DNA of 64,000 bases from Halorubrum halophilum (GTDB lineage: Archaea; Halobacteriota; Halobacteria; Halobacteriales; Haloferacaceae). This document shows positions 11,152 to 40,415 of the stretch, in pieces. The stretch covers positions 124,001 to 188,000 of the forward strand of contig NZ_BBJP01000013.1 of assembly GCF_000739595.1 (NCBI RefSeq). The letters run 5' to 3'. Under the pieces are notes generated by a model that saw nothing but the letters and a program-made list of their open reading frames with translations, was not told where the DNA came from and did no database searches. The translations under genes were made by a program, and so were the position numbers. The first letter of the stretch is position 1; the number at the start of each line of letters is the position of its first letter.

Positions 11152-11262
11152 CCGGAACGCGGTGGGGATCGGAGCGCGGCGCCGACGAGGGAGACGAACA
11201 TATTCGGCACCTCCCGCGGCGAGCCAACAGACACTTATGACCGCCGAAACGACTCCGGGCAC

Positions 11263-11835
11263 ATGTCTGTCCCCGACCAATCGAACCGAACGAGCGGAAT
11301 CGTCGGCGGCGCGGCGGGCGGCGCCGTCGCGTACGTCCTCGGCTATCTGGTCGTGTACGTGACGCAGGGCGACCGGATCGAGGAGGGGCTCTCGGGGATC
11401 AACTTCTTCGCCGACCTGTTCGGCGGCGACCCGATCTCCACGTGGCAGGCCGCGGGGTGGATGTTCTATAACGCCCACTTCGTCGACATCAACGCCCCCT
11501 CGCTGATCGGCGGCGCGCAGTCGGCGAACCTCCTCTCGCAGGGCGAGGGCGGGTCCCTCCTGTTCGTCCTCCCGCCGCTCCTGCTCCTCGTCGCCGGTGT
11601 CGTCGCCGGTCGGGCCGCCGACGCCTCCGACCCGGCCGACGGGGCGCAGGCCGGCGCGTTCGTCCTCGCCGGGTACCTCCCGCTCGCGGTGATCGGGGCG
11701 TTCCTGTTCCGGTTCTCCGTGGGCGACGGAACGGTGGCGCCCGACCTCGTCACCGCCGTGCTGCTCGCCGGCGCCGTCTACCCGGCGGTCTTCGGCGCGA
11801 TCGGCGGGGCCGCCTCGTCGCTGCTGAGCGACTGA
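11263..11835 (+). CDS. Haloarchaeal integral membrane protein of unknown function
   Basis: A 190-residue protein with about five hydrophobic helices: GGAAGGAVAYVLGYLVVYV near the N-terminus, a short one around residue 65, LFVLPPLLLLVAGVVAG, AFVLAGYLPLAVIGAF and AVLLAGAVYPAVFGAIGG. A TATA-like CTTATG lies about 25-30 nt before the ATG. I do not recognise a named domain with certainty. It is convergent with the UPF0201 gene. Confidence 0.7.
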   Translation: MSVPDQSNRTSGIVGGAAGGAVAYVLGYLVVYVTQGDRIEEGLSGINFFADLFGGDPISTWQAAGWMFYNAHFVDINAPSLIGGAQSANLLSQGEGGSLLFVLPPLLLLVAGVVAGRAADASDPADGAQAGAFVLAGYLPLAVIGAFLFRFSVGDGTVAPDLVTAVLLAGAVYPAVFGAIGGAASSLLSD

Positions 11836-36265: not shown

Positions 36266-38554
36266 TCAGTCGTCGTCGAGGACCCCCTCGGCGACGGCCA
36301 TGTCGTCGACGCTCGGGTCGTCGGCGGAGCTCCGCAGGACGAAGCGCTTGCGGATCAGGTCCGCGAAGTAGATCGCGGTCCCGAGGATGAGCAGGGTGTC
36401 GCCCGGGAGCCGCGCCCAGAACAGCGTCTGGACGAGCGACCCCTCGTAGAAGGCGAGGCTGCGCGCCGCGGCGTAGCTCTCCGTGAACGCGACCTCAAGC
36501 TGGAGGAAGCCGACGGGGAGCACCGAGACGAACACCATCAGCGCGAGCCCGACGTTCCACAGCCAGAACGACGCCCGGAGCCACGAGCCGTCCCAGCGCT
36601 CGGGGTCGATCGACAGCTGGAGCATATACGCCACCATCCCGAGCGCGAGGAAGCCGAACGCGCCGAACATCGCGGCGTGGGCGTGCCCCACCGTGAGGTA
36701 GGTGCCGTGCTCGTAGTAGTTGATCAGCGGGAGGTTGATGAAGAAGCCGAGCACCCCGGCGCCGACGAAGTTCCACACCCCGCTGGCGACGATGAACATG
36801 AAGGGGAGCGTGTAGGGGAACCCGCCGGTCTCGGTCATCGCCCGGTACTGTCCGATCGCCTCGTAGAGGATGAAGATCAGCGGGAGCAGCTCCAGCGTCG
36901 AGAAGACGCTCCCGATCGGGACCCAGTAGTCCGGCATCCCGATCCACCAGTAGTGGTGCGAGACGCCGATGACGCCGGTCCCCATCACGAGCAGCGCCTG
37001 CAGCATGACGGCCTTCTCGGCGCTGCGCCGCGTGAGGAGGTTCATCGAGACCAACGTGAGCCCGATGATCGCGACGATGAAGAACTCGAAGGCGCCCTCG
37101 ACCCACATGTGGACGACCCACCACCGCCAGAACTCGGTGACGGCCATGTTCGTCGACGGCGTGAAGAAGAAGCCGGCGATGAACAGCAGCGTGATCGAGC
37201 CGCCCGCGTAGAGGATCATGTGTGCGAGCCCGTACACCGGCTCGCGGTCGAGCAGCGGCTTGAGCCCGCGGATCGCGAGGACCGCCCAGAGGACGAAGCC
37301 GACGAGCAGGCCGCCCTGCCACACCTTCCCGACTTCGAGGTACTCCAGTCCCTCGTTGCCGAGGAGCCACCAGAGCTGGCCGTCGAAGTAGCCGTTCGCG
37401 CCGAGCCAGATGCCGCCCATCCCGCCGACGACGACGGTCACTAACGCGCCGAGCAGGACGTTGACGTACCGCGCCTGATTCTTCGGCTCGTGGCCGGTGA
37501 GGAGGGGCGGGAGGAACAGGCCGGCACCGAGCCACGTCGACGCGATCCAGAGGATGCCCAGGTCGATGTGCCACGTCTTCGCGATCGAGAAGGGGAGCAA
37601 CTGGAGGATGTGGATTCCGAACACCTCCTCGATCCCGAAGAATCCGGCCCGTTCGATGTAGAAGTGAGCCAACAAGCCCCCGAGCAACACCTGTGCCAAG
37701 AACAGTCCGGCGGCGATGGGAATGAACCGGAGCGCCGCGCGCTGGCTCGGGAAGACGCTCACGTCGCCCGGCTCCGGTACGGCGATCCCCTCCGCCGACG
37801 GCTCCGGGAGCTTCACCGACTTGTAGAGGAGGATCGCCGCGCCCGCCGCGCCGACGAGCAGCACCATCGCGATGACACTCCACGTCATCGCGGCGCCGGT
37901 GGCGTCGTTGCCGGCGGCCGGCGAGGGCGGCCACTCGTTCGTGAAGGAGTTGTCGCCGTCGGGCCGGTCGGTGTGGGAGAACCACGCCGTCCACAGCGCG
38001 AAGTCGGCGAAGTCCTCGGCCTCCTCCGTCGACTCGATCATCTCGACCGGGACGCCCCGGTCGTGGTCGCCCTCGTGGTAGCGCTCGACGTACGTCTCGC
38101 GCACCTGCTCGTGGGCGTACGCCTCCGCGGGGGAGTACCGGACGGTGTCGCTCCCGTCGTGCGCGCCGTCGAGGTCGTCGCGGACGGTCTGGTCGACCGC
38201 CGCGCGCTCCGAGGAGCTGAGCGCGTCGTAGCCGGTACCGTGCTCCTCCTGTGCGTAGTACTCCCGCATGTGTTGGGTCTTCAACTCGAGCGTCTCGGCG
38301 GTGTAGTCCTCGCCGTAGTACGCGCCGTTGCCGAGTATCGACCCGTGGTTCATCAGCCCGTACTGCTGGAACGCCGCCTTCCCGTCTTGGACCGTCTCCC
38401 CGGTGGCGATCGTCTCGCCGTCGGGGCCGACGACCTCGTCGGGGATCGGCGGCGCCTCCTGGTACGCGAACCACGCCCCGGCGCCCATCACGACCAGATT
38501 GAGCAGGAACGCCGCGACGATGACCTTCGCGATCGTCTTGCGTGTAAGCTCCAT
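36266..38554 (-). CDS. norB: Quinol-dependent nitric oxide reductase (qNor)
   Basis: A 762-residue polytopic heme-copper-oxidase-family enzyme reducing NO to N2O at the membrane. The N-terminal extension with a helix and a 200-residue extracytoplasmic domain (PDEVVGPDGETIATGETVQD) marks the quinol type that needs no NorC. Heme and metal histidines lie in THIDLGILW-like AKTWHIDLGILWIASTW, HMWVEGAFEFF, GVSHHYWWIG and VGHAHAAMFGAFGF. Start at 38554 places the first helix right at the N-terminus. A palindrome lies 41-52 nt upstream of it. Confidence 0.94.
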   Translation of the reverse strand: MELTRKTIAKVIVAAFLLNLVVMGAGAWFAYQEAPPIPDEVVGPDGETIATGETVQDGKAAFQQYGLMNHGSILGNGAYYGEDYTAETLELKTQHMREYYAQEEHGTGYDALSSSERAAVDQTVRDDLDGAHDGSDTVRYSPAEAYAHEQVRETYVERYHEGDHDRGVPVEMIESTEEAEDFADFALWTAWFSHTDRPDGDNSFTNEWPPSPAAGNDATGAAMTWSVIAMVLLVGAAGAAILLYKSVKLPEPSAEGIAVPEPGDVSVFPSQRAALRFIPIAAGLFLAQVLLGGLLAHFYIERAGFFGIEEVFGIHILQLLPFSIAKTWHIDLGILWIASTWLGAGLFLPPLLTGHEPKNQARYVNVLLGALVTVVVGGMGGIWLGANGYFDGQLWWLLGNEGLEYLEVGKVWQGGLLVGFVLWAVLAIRGLKPLLDREPVYGLAHMILYAGGSITLLFIAGFFFTPSTNMAVTEFWRWWVVHMWVEGAFEFFIVAIIGLTLVSMNLLTRRSAEKAVMLQALLVMGTGVIGVSHHYWWIGMPDYWVPIGSVFSTLELLPLIFILYEAIGQYRAMTETGGFPYTLPFMFIVASGVWNFVGAGVLGFFINLPLINYYEHGTYLTVGHAHAAMFGAFGFLALGMVAYMLQLSIDPERWDGSWLRASFWLWNVGLALMVFVSVLPVGFLQLEVAFTESYAAARSLAFYEGSLVQTLFWARLPGDTLLILGTAIYFADLIRKRFVLRSSADDPSVDDMAVAEGVLDDD

Positions 38555-38594
38555 CAGGTGGGCGTTGCCCCTAGACGGACTATCAGTTTGCCGG

Positions 38595-38606
38595 CAACAT
38601 GTTCGG
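38595..38606 (-). promoter_or_regulatory. Palindrome-like operator upstream of norB
   Basis: Reads CAACATGTTCGG; the right half CATGTTCG equals the perfect palindrome at 38684-38699 and the left half is degenerate. It is 41-52 nt before the norB ATG. Confidence 0.5.
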
Positions 38607-38683: not shown

Positions 38684-38699
38684 CACGAACATGTTCGTG
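38684..38699 (+). promoter_or_regulatory. Perfect 16-bp palindromic operator upstream of the MoaD-like gene
   Basis: CACGAACATGTTCGTG is a perfect inverted repeat 37-52 nt before the ATG at 38736. It resembles the CGAAC-spacer-GTTCG sites that I recall for the haloarchaeal denitrification regulator NarO, though with a 2-nt spacer here. Confidence 0.6.
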
Positions 38700-38735: not shown

Positions 38736-39170
38736 ATGCCATCGACTACCGAGGCCGCGGCGCCGGAGTCGGAGTCCGAGAGCGTGACGGAGTCCGCGAA
38801 CGCTGCGGAGACGACGGTCACGGTGCGGTGTACCGGCCACGTCCGCACGGAGCTCGGGGAGTACGAGTTCGAGTACACGTTCGAGGGGGACACCCTCCGC
38901 GAGTTCCTCGACGAGCTGTTTGAGGAGTACCCGGAGCTACAGGAGATGCTGATCGCGGAGAGCGAGGCGGAGGCGACCCACAGCGGCTGGGCGCCGACGC
39001 CCGAGGAGCTTCCGGGGACGTGGACGAAGAACCCGGTCGGCGAGCAGACGATCGCGTACGCCCGGATCCTCGTGAACGGTCACTTCAACGAGAACGAGAA
39101 GGGATTCGACACCGAACTGGAGGAGGGCGACCGGGTCGCGCTGGTGTACCCGTTTATGTTCTGCTGTTAG
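38736..39170 (+). CDS. MoaD/ThiS-like beta-grasp protein of the denitrification locus
   Basis: A 144-residue protein; the ATG two codons upstream at 38730 is an alternative. An acidic N-terminal 30 residues are followed by a beta-grasp domain: VTVRCTGHVRTELGEYEFEY, then TLREFLDELFEEYPELQEML and AYARILVNGHFN. Canonical MoaD or SAMP proteins end in Gly-Gly; this one ends YPFMFCC with two cysteines, so it cannot be a standard sulfur carrier or protein modifier. Divergent from norB, both with the same palindrome type, which suggests a role with nitric oxide reductase. Confidence 0.78.
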   Translation: MPSTTEAAAPESESESVTESANAAETTVTVRCTGHVRTELGEYEFEYTFEGDTLREFLDELFEEYPELQEMLIAESEAEATHSGWAPTPEELPGTWTKNPVGEQTIAYARILVNGHFNENEKGFDTELEEGDRVALVYPFMFCC

Positions 39171-39218: not shown

Positions 39219-40415
39219 TTAGGCCTCGTAGCCCGCCAGGTCCATCACGGAGGCGAACTGCTCGGTGTCCATCACGCTCTCGTACACCATCCCGCCGATC
39301 ATGCCGCCGGGGTAGGCGTCGCCGTTCATCGCGTGGTTCACCTTGTGGCAGTGGAGCGCGTAGACGCCCGGGTCGGCGTCGGCGGTGAACTCGATCGTCT
39401 TGCGCTCGGCGGGCGCGAGAGGGACCACGTCCTCGCGGTGTCGAGCGGCCTCGGGGATGACGCCCCCGTCTTTCTCGACCACGGTGAAGCCGTGGTTGTG
39501 CGTGTGCATCGCGTGCGACTCGTAGCCGGCGTTGACGTAGTGGATCCGAACCGAATCACCCTCCTGGAGGATCAGGGGGGAGCCCTCTTCGGGGTGGAAG
39601 CTGTACGGCGCCGACCGCCCGTTGATGGTGAACGCGTCCGGGTTGCGATCGCGGTGGCTGAAGTCCACGTCGCCGCCGGCCATCGAGGCGGACAGGCGAG
39701 TGTCCCAGTCTTTGATCGTCCTGAAGACCTCTTGGTCCGCGGGCTCGTACCCCTCAGGATCGACCCGAAGAATGCCGTACATCCCCATATCGAGATGATT
39801 CTGGGTCTGGTAGTGGCAGTGGTAGAGGTGGGTTCCCGGCTGGTTCGCCGTGATCTCGTAGGTGTGCTCCTCGCCCGGCGCGACCTGCCGGCCCGTCGTC
39901 GTCGGGACGCCGTCGTCCATCCAGTCCTTGCGAAGCCCGTGGACGTGGAACGTGTGCGGGCGGTTGTGCTCCGAGTTGTCGTAGGTGATCTCCAGTTCGG
40001 TTCCCTCAGTGACTCGGAGTAGGGGGCCGGGGACGCTCGGGTCCGTGTCAGGCGTCTGCCACGCCCAGACCTCGGGCAGCTCCCACGGGCCGCCGCGCGT
40101 GTCCTCCCCGAGTAACTGGTGGCGACACGGGGTCGTGGACACCGTGATCTGCCCATCCCGCTCGTCGAGGTCGATCGTCGTCCGCGGGGACGTGTACGGG
40201 TGGTCGGTCTCGACGCCCGTGGAGTCGCTTCCGGACCACTCCTCGACCTGCTCGGCCGCTTCCCCGCTGGTGGCCGCGTTCTCCGCGCCCGTTCCGGCGT
40301 CCGCGCGCGGGGCGCCGCACCCCGCGAGCCCGACGGTGCCGAGCGCCGCGGCCGCCGAGAGGAACCCGCGTCTGGAAGCCGTGCGTCGACCGGTGTCGTC
40401 GCCGTCTCTCGTCAT
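39219..40415 (-). CDS. Two-domain multicopper oxidase, candidate copper nitrite reductase
   Basis: A 398-residue Tat-exported lipoprotein: SRRGFLSAAAALGTVGLAGC is a twin-arginine signal with lipobox Cys33. Two cupredoxin domains follow. Domain 1 has FHVHG (His157, His159) and YHCHYQTQNHLDMGM (Cys200, His207, Met210/212). Domain 2 has HTHNH (304-308) and LHCHKVNHAMNG (Cys356). Both domains thus carry HCH copper signatures, more like a type A two-domain laccase than classical NirK, whose second domain lacks a type 1 Cys. The norB neighbourhood argues for a denitrification role. Function not proven. Confidence 0.75.
   Translation of the reverse strand: MTRDGDDTGRRTASRRGFLSAAAALGTVGLAGCGAPRADAGTGAENAATSGEAAEQVEEWSGSDSTGVETDHPYTSPRTTIDLDERDGQITVSTTPCRHQLLGEDTRGGPWELPEVWAWQTPDTDPSVPGPLLRVTEGTELEITYDNSEHNRPHTFHVHGLRKDWMDDGVPTTTGRQVAPGEEHTYEITANQPGTHLYHCHYQTQNHLDMGMYGILRVDPEGYEPADQEVFRTIKDWDTRLSASMAGGDVDFSHRDRNPDAFTINGRSAPYSFHPEEGSPLILQEGDSVRIHYVNAGYESHAMHTHNHGFTVVEKDGGVIPEAARHREDVVPLAPAERKTIEFTADADPGVYALHCHKVNHAMNGDAYPGGMIGGMVYESVMDTEQFASVMDLAGYEA

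Follow-up and report, generated by a model that had tools for sequence, protein, structure and literature searches.

A MoaD-like haloarchaeal protein with a tail cysteine in place of Gly-Gly and a denitrification-type operator

What does a protein with the MoaD fold do when it ends in Cys-Cys instead of the Gly-Gly used for adenylation, and what connects its gene to the nitric oxide (NO) reductase gene beside it? The question is raised by an open reading frame (ORF) in a stretch of 64,000 nucleotides from Halorubrum halophilum, which is called the window in the following. The original prediction described a beta-grasp protein with a terminal Cys pair and an operator shared with NO reductase, and suggested metal or heme handling, redox chemistry or an assembly role for this enzyme.

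Fold and promoter of the MoaD-like gene

The ORF encodes 144 residues with the C-terminus YPFMFCC (...DRVALVYPFMFCC), and its reading frame is kept among homologues. Since the first training set of the codon-usage gene caller contained this ORF, its prediction by the caller gives no independent support. The relevant features are:

38736–39170, plus strand: MoaD/SAMP-like beta-grasp protein, 144 amino acids (domain search and AlphaFold/Foldseek)
36266–38554, minus strand: single-chain, NorZ-like NO reductase, divergent (PF22085, E 1.1e-50; PF00115, E 1.1e-49)
39219–40415, minus strand: multicopper oxidase, convergent neighbor (TIGR02376, 57.7 bits against a cut-off of 296.3)
38686–38697, no strand: putative operator CGAACATGTTCG, perfect, 38 bp upstream of the MoaD-like gene
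38594–38605, no strand: second putative operator copy GCAACATGTTCG, imperfect (10/12), 39 bp before the NO reductase start

The proposed fold was confirmed. The sole domain match in the profile search is to ThiS/MoaD, with 29.6 bits for Pfam ThiS (PF02597; cut-off 22.5); the more specific models TIGR01687 moaD_arch (40.1, cut-off 49.5) and SAMP1 (NF041918; 35.3, cut-off 60) remain below their thresholds. An AlphaFold model built on an alignment of 45 sequences displays a beta-grasp core and is of moderate quality (mean pLDDT 70.3, pTM 0.60). The best solved structures found with it by Foldseek are SAMP1 from M. acetivorans (E 1.6e-5) and HVO_2177 (E 4.8e-4), followed by MoaD-, CysO- and Urm1-type proteins. 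Hence, the protein belongs to the ThiS/MoaD superfamily. The pLDDT falls below 50 at residues 8–21, 76–87, 99–105 and 141–144; consequently, the tail itself has no usable model. The protein is probably cytosolic.

The divergent NO reductase combines the NorB cytochrome c-like domain (PF22085) and COX1 in one chain and is of the quinol type by domain layout. An assignment of the convergent multicopper oxidase as copper nitrite reductase (NirK) was ruled out by its TIGR02376 score. Inspection by eye revealed HxH/HCH copper-type motifs in both halves of this oxidase.

Both palindromes lie in the 181-bp intergenic region between the MoaD-like and the NO reductase gene. The perfect copy is the core of a perfect 16-bp palindrome, CACGAACATGTTCGTG, at 38684–38699, and agrees with two motifs published for denitrification promoters, CGAA-N4-TTCG (PMC5746218) and CGAAYATDKTYG (PMC11218638). 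According to the accessible text of PMC5746218 (citing Hattori 2016), CGAA-N4-TTCG occurs in promoters of denitrification genes and of ahbD in Haloferax volcanii and is essential for nirK transcription. CGAAYATDKTYG is the motif of an RNA-seq paper on H. mediterranei, which in its accessible part describes the regulator binding it as still undisclosed (PMC11218638). It is highly probable that the MoaD-like gene is a member of a denitrification or anaerobic regulon of the NarO type, and it appears to be controlled together with NO reductase genes. The shared operator of the original prediction thus has to be replaced by two separate sites of the denitrification type, at 38686–38697 and 38594–38605. 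Elsewhere in the window, a match CGAACATATTCG to the published consensus CGAAYATDKTYG was observed at 11195–11206, 56 bp before an ORF at 11263–11835 (plus strand), which is a possible further regulon member.

The C-terminal tail and other conserved residues

Three further features lie within the MoaD-like gene, with conservation counted among its homologues:

38829–38840, plus strand: C-T-G-H motif at the end of strand 1 (Cys32 in 115/154, Gly34 in 154/154, His35 in 146/154)
38961–39047, plus strand: insertion of about 28 residues (residues ~76–104), from a profile alignment to PDB chains 2m19 and 2l52
39162–39167, plus strand: codons of Cys143 and Cys144 (Cys143 in 153/154; Cys144 in 117/154, otherwise L, V, F or R)

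C-termini were taken from 160 genomes carrying the gene, half of which (80) also have a homologue of the NorZ encoded in the window and half (80) do not. The NO reductase-positive set comprised 80 of 84 genomes (every second of 168 carriers; the last four were left out). Six of the 160 copies lacked a readable tail and were excluded, so that the tail statistics refer to 154 copies. The penultimate Cys143 is present in 153 of these intact homologues. The last residue is Cys in 117; the other 37 have Leu (17), Val (12), Phe (7) or Arg (1). The tail takes the form [FY]-C-[C/L/V/F/R] in 153 copies and F-R-C in one. In a tree of 150 distinct cores (tail and Cys columns excluded, genomes G026 and G104 left out) Cys143 does not change at all, whereas at least 13 changes are required for Cys144 and at least 8 for Cys32. 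Since Cys143 is fixed and Cys144 variable, the motif is [FY]-C-x rather than C-C. Thus, the alignment check proposed with the original prediction upheld a conserved cysteine at the C-terminus, namely the penultimate one, but not the conserved pair, and the last Cys is too variable for a redox or metal protein that depends on both terminal cysteines. A C-terminal Gly-Gly for adenylation is absent from all 154 intact homologues, as had been read for the single protein.

The sole loss of Cys143 in a copy with an intact end belongs to G026, a genome without NorZ in which Cys32 and Cys143 are both replaced by Arg; this copy looks decayed. In G021 the MoaD-like tail reads FCR and the NorZ gene carries an in-frame TAG. 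Moreover, in a panel of 59 related genomes the readable non-CC ends (G021, G026, G041, G045, G046 and the truncated G048) all occur in genomes without an intact NorZ. This hint that the CC end is tied to NO reductase was abandoned after the larger sample, since CC ends are found in 61/80 genomes with and 55/80 without NorZ (p = 0.38). Hence, the terminal Cys pair as the key feature, as in the original prediction, is not supported. Broken copies were counted in 6/80 genomes without NorZ versus 1/80 with NorZ, which is not significant (p = 0.12; G021 and G104 uncounted). Four genomes (G152, G198, G312, G400) have two matches each to the MoaD-like protein. The second copy adjoins the first and is diverged in G152 and G198; it is a weak match with an internal stop in G312 and a partial match on another contig in G400.

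E1 enzymes accept Gly-Gly tails. Conceivably, the protein still functions as a sulfur carrier or modifier of proteins, with Cys-Cys in the place of Gly-Gly and an E1-like enzyme that adenylates its terminal carboxylate. Its fold and tail position match those of SAMP and MoaD, and the CC-ended family is listed among the candidate ubiquitin-like (Ubl) proteins of Makarova and Koonin in the accessible text of PMC2948915. However, the bulky F/Y-C-x tail with C, L, V, F or R as last residue is unlike Gly-Gly, and no MoeB/ThiF-type gene was found among the identified neighbors. Because the tail is aromatic-Cys-x, Gly-Gly chemistry is unlikely, and we regard the E1-dependent reading as highly doubtful.

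The same tail might carry a lipid. Prenylation of CC ends exists in Rab-type proteins and halobacteria have lipid-modified cysteines, so that a prenyl group or an archaeal lipid on Cys143 or Cys144 could tether the protein to the membrane beside NO reductase. An aromatic residue followed by Cys and then Cys or a hydrophobic residue would suit such an anchor, as would the membrane enzyme encoded divergently. The pattern does not match a CaaX box, however, and we assign the lipid anchor little probability.

The insertion follows the pattern GWAPxPxxLPGTWxKNPxGEQT, with Trp85 and Pro100 present in 154/154 homologues. It has no counterpart in SAMP1 and HVO_2177 in the profile alignment, in which the N-terminal halves align weakly; HVO_2177 resumes after 2 residues where the profile of the MoaD-like family spans 29. 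Arg110, Phe117 and Asn118 are, like Trp85, invariant among the 154 homologues.

Strands 1 and 5 adjoin in beta-grasp folds, and this adjacency would bring the C-T-G-H motif and the C-C end together. A metal site of Cys32, His35, Cys143 and Cys144, for instance in a copper or zinc chaperone, is therefore conceivable, and copper enzymes are present in the same gene sets. Cys32 and Cys144 are indeed associated (98 copies with both, 17 with Cys32 only, 19 with Cys144 only and 20 with neither; odds ratio 6, p = 1.6e-5), but this p value takes no account of kinship between homologues. We did not accept the covariation as proof of a metal site, since kinship is ignored and 36 of the 154 copies are exceptions that retain just one of the two cysteines (two of these copies, from G026 and G104, are damaged). 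With a tail of pLDDT below 50 in addition, a complete four-residue site is very unlikely.

Distribution, neighborhoods and the operator in other genomes

Homologues of the MoaD-like protein were detected in 36 of the 59 relatives and in 248 of 391 genomes of Halobacteria. In a sample of 147 genomes from the phylum, all 15 strong matches come from within the order; those beyond it number 6 and are weak and partial. A search of viral contigs with this single protein as query found no relative. For co-occurrence, NO reductase was scored as present if a homologue of the NorZ from the window was found at E <= 1e-60. Both genes occur in 168 of the 391 genomes, the MoaD-like gene only in 80, NorZ only in 44 and neither in 99 (odds ratio 4.7, p = 1.8e-12). 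The corresponding numbers are 27, 9, 0 and 10 for the host genus (p = 2e-5) and 25, 11, 2 and 21 for the 59-genome panel; all these p values are inflated by common ancestry and physical linkage. Together with the operator and the adjacency of the two genes in many Halorubrum (in a locus set that includes duplicates), the co-occurrence bears out the genetic link to NO reductase. A role dedicated to the assembly of NO reductase fits less well. NorZ is missing from 80 of the 248 carriers and the MoaD-like gene from 44 genomes with NorZ, so that NO reductase, at least of the NorZ type scored in the 391 genomes, neither requires the protein nor is its exclusive partner; a dedicated assembly factor would be present wherever, and only where, the enzyme is.

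The neighborhoods point in the same direction. From 91 loci run through the gene caller the MoaD-like gene was retained in 86, many of them close relatives with identical synteny. Within five genes, radical SAM/SPASM genes were found at 30 of these loci, Htur_1727 genes at 24, COX1-like genes at 19, NorZ at 17, CGCGG genes at 16, HTH regulators at 11 and multicopper oxidases at 10. A gene labelled PccA by eye lies near 22 loci, probably because of common synteny among relatives. Ten plasmid records with the MoaD-like gene have NirK within 7 kb in six cases and a 'cbb3-type cytochrome c oxidase subunit I' of NO reductase size within 7 kb in five; on the plasmid of Halobaculum limi the position of this oxidase agrees with the NorZ match to within 6 bases. 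CGCGG and Htur_1727 genes are near in 5/10 records each, halocyanin and radical SAM genes occur too, and a molybdopterin oxidoreductase gene follows directly downstream in 3/10. Since the neighbors are so varied, the MoaD-like gene belongs to anaerobic respiration islands generally; NO reductase is one frequent link, but the link is not specific to it. No sulfurtransferase gene was found among the identified neighbors.

At two loci (L037 and L031) a canonical Gly-Gly MoaD/ThiS gene, of the same protein cluster in both, is convergent with and adjacent to the Cys-ended gene; the protein from L037 has 91 residues, the C-terminus VAGG and a ThiS match of E 1.6e-14. The COX1-like membrane protein (L329:5846–7240 and its cluster) has about 445–464 residues and scores under the Pfam COX1 cut-off; its cluster has the operator at 17 of 18 members. 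A sequence search of the PDB with one member of 445 residues gave no match up to E 1. Possibly, it is an NO-related heme protein without an assignment.

For the promoters we used the strict core pattern CGAACNNGTTCG of the denitrification palindrome in haloarchaea. In 80 named loci it lies upstream of 57 of 79 MoaD-like genes, compared with 13 of 847 genes that belong to none of the named clusters, but many of these loci are from close relatives and the counts are non-independent. The pattern is also frequent at NorZ (14/16) and COX1-like genes (17/18); since divergent pairs share sites, these two counts are not independent of that for the MoaD-like gene. The remaining clusters have it at CGCGG (9/15), multicopper oxidase (4/10), HTH (3/11), NirK (1/4), radical SAM (4/43) and Htur_1727 genes (2/23). 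In the 160 sampled carriers, the operator precedes the MoaD-like gene in 64/80 genomes with NO reductase versus 44/80 without (p = 0.001).

The host genome of 3.68 Mb contains 37 strict palindromes and the reversed control pattern none. Their surroundings were viewed in the window and in five further stretches. Two copies, both at a distance of 38 bp from the gene start next to them, separate a COX1-like gene from a divergent run of genes on one strand, which encodes two DUF2249 proteins, a 184-residue protein without assignment, a halocyanin, an HTH_10 regulator and, as the last, CGCGG. Contig C103 carries both genes of the host genome that score above the NirK cut-off. In their surroundings there are two relaxed copies, one of them 133 bp before one NirK gene, and two strict ones, one of which falls inside a called gene; the other NirK gene has no copy directly upstream. 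A further strict copy precedes a pair of Htur_1727 and TIGR04347 (pseudo-rSAM) genes by 63 bp. Three more strict copies, in the stretches L329, L331 and L333, are located within called genes and seem to be due to chance. Three other ThiS-family genes of the host genome (L166, L167, L169) all lack the operator. Their open frames end in GGA, GGALGRESDR and GGR, and with 1 to 8 residues past Gly-Gly, trimming would precede activation.

Two alternatives emerge from these gene sets. Firstly, the protein may escort radical SAM enzymes or serve as a scaffold for the TIGR04053/TIGR04347 SPASM, CGCGG and Htur_1727 proteins, for instance by acting as a carrier or being the substrate when heme or a peptide is modified. 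The neighbor counts (30, 24 and 16 of 86 loci for radical SAM/SPASM, Htur_1727 and CGCGG) agree with this idea, and so do the CGCGG gene that closes an operator-headed run in the host genome and the Htur_1727/TIGR04347 pair behind another copy. Many of the loci are from Natrialbaceae with the same synteny, however, so that the counts are not independent, and the strict operator precedes only 4/43 radical SAM and 2/23 Htur_1727 genes. Moreover, CGCGG occurs in 29/36 carriers but also in 11/23 non-carriers (p = 0.01), and in the host genome the CGCGG, Htur_1727 and TIGR04347 genes sit on other contigs than the MoaD-like gene. We consider a role as radical SAM escort unlikely.

Secondly, the protein may sense or buffer NO and nitrosative stress, with Cys143 being nitrosated or ligating an iron-nitrosyl, and thereby signal to or protect the reductases. 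A single near-invariant tail cysteine would be appropriate for such a function, as would an operator that is common to DUF2249, halocyanin and COX1-like genes in the host genome. On the other hand, ThiS/MoaD is the sole domain match, without a DNA-binding or signalling domain, and the invariant insertion together with Trp85, Arg110, Phe117 and Asn118 suggests a protein partner beyond the thiol alone. A sensor or buffer is improbable for these reasons.

Proposed function and comparison with known systems

Tentatively, and with somewhat less than even confidence, we propose that the MoaD-like protein has an accessory role in the denitrification regulon of haloarchaea and works through its tail thiol; probably it is a helper of anaerobic respiration by NO reductase. 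In this proposal the sulfur-carrier fold of the MoaD/SAMP type would have been reused within an anaerobic denitrification regulon and C-terminal adenylation given up. Homologues have retained the insertion, a set of other residues and one thiol located about where the penultimate Gly would be. MoaD and ThiS tails reach into the active site of their partner. By analogy, the tail of the MoaD-like protein may present the thiol of Cys143 to a client or partner, most likely as a soft carrier or ligand, be it as persulfide or as ligand of a metal or heme iron. Clients to be matured or repaired under NO stress might be NO reductase and NirK; the COX1-like protein that belongs to the regulon is a less certain candidate. 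Cys144, Cys32 and His35 would then be useful in most lineages without being indispensable. A more specific version, in which the penultimate Gly became a Cys that carries a persulfide or a metal or heme ligand for the N-oxide-reducing heme-copper and copper enzymes and dispenses with ATP-dependent adenylation, is a good deal more doubtful. Several observations stand against the preferred reading as an accessory protein: carriers without NorZ and NorZ genomes without the MoaD-like gene are numerous (80 and 44), the strict operator is sparse at NirK (1/4), radical SAM (4/43) and Htur_1727 genes (2/23), three plasmids have a molybdopterin oxidoreductase gene directly behind the MoaD-like gene instead, the identified neighbors include no sulfurtransferase gene, and Cys32, His35, Cys143 and Cys144 are not conserved as a complete metal site among the 154 homologues.

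Haloarchaea include well-studied archaeal denitrifiers, but hardly anything is known, to our knowledge, of what matures and protects their NO and nitrite reductases. If correct, our proposal would provide a clear case of the ubiquitin/MoaD fold trading Gly-Gly chemistry for a tail cysteine; a thiol carrier would be a second chemistry for this fold. In any case, a family found in 248 of 391 genomes of Halobacteria and without a function since 2010 gains a testable place through its denitrification operator.

The family is almost certainly arCOG00539 of Makarova and Koonin, a beta-grasp family of Halobacteria with a double-cysteine C-terminus noted in 2010 without a function (PMC2948915); the homologues in the 248 genomes agree with this description. 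The main text of that paper names arCOG00539 once and does not contain 'nitric', 'nitrite' or 'denitrif', so that no function is given there, and no other paper naming arCOG00539 was found in the literature searched. The view that no function had been described therefore holds for arCOG00539, but the family itself had already been noticed. The motif is given as CC in the accessible text of PMC2948915; according to our counts, it is the penultimate Cys that is fixed. A second haloarchaeal family with a CC end, arCOG08988, has a different, Pup-like predicted fold according to the same text. 'MoaD' was not found in the main text of PMC11218638, and no report linking MoaD to denitrification, and none on a link for CC-ended Ubl proteins or CGCGG/Htur_1727, was found in the literature searched, which was judged from listings. 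Thus, the operator and tail findings appear new within this literature, and the family itself is known.

Among the known systems, SAMP1, HVO_2177 and archaeal MoaD (TIGR01687, NF041918) have the beta-grasp fold in common with the MoaD-like protein, provide the nearest solved structures and are recognizable in sequence. In contrast to them, it lacks Gly-Gly, contains the insertion of about 28 residues and scores below both cut-offs. CGCGG (TIGR03995) and Htur_1727 (TIGR04031), small radical-SAM-partnered proteins encoded near the MoaD-like gene in many haloarchaea, are other families, and neither model matched the MoaD-like protein. From the three Gly-Gly-type paralogues of the host genome it differs in that only its gene has a denitrification-type operator. 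For the promoter, the comparison is with the NarO-dependent regulon of Haloferax, which, as far as the accessible texts of PMC5746218 and PMC11218638 describe it, has the same palindrome (CGAA-N4-TTCG or CGAAYATDKTYG) at nirK, nor and other genes and also includes DUF2249, halocyanin and bacterio-opsin-activator genes.
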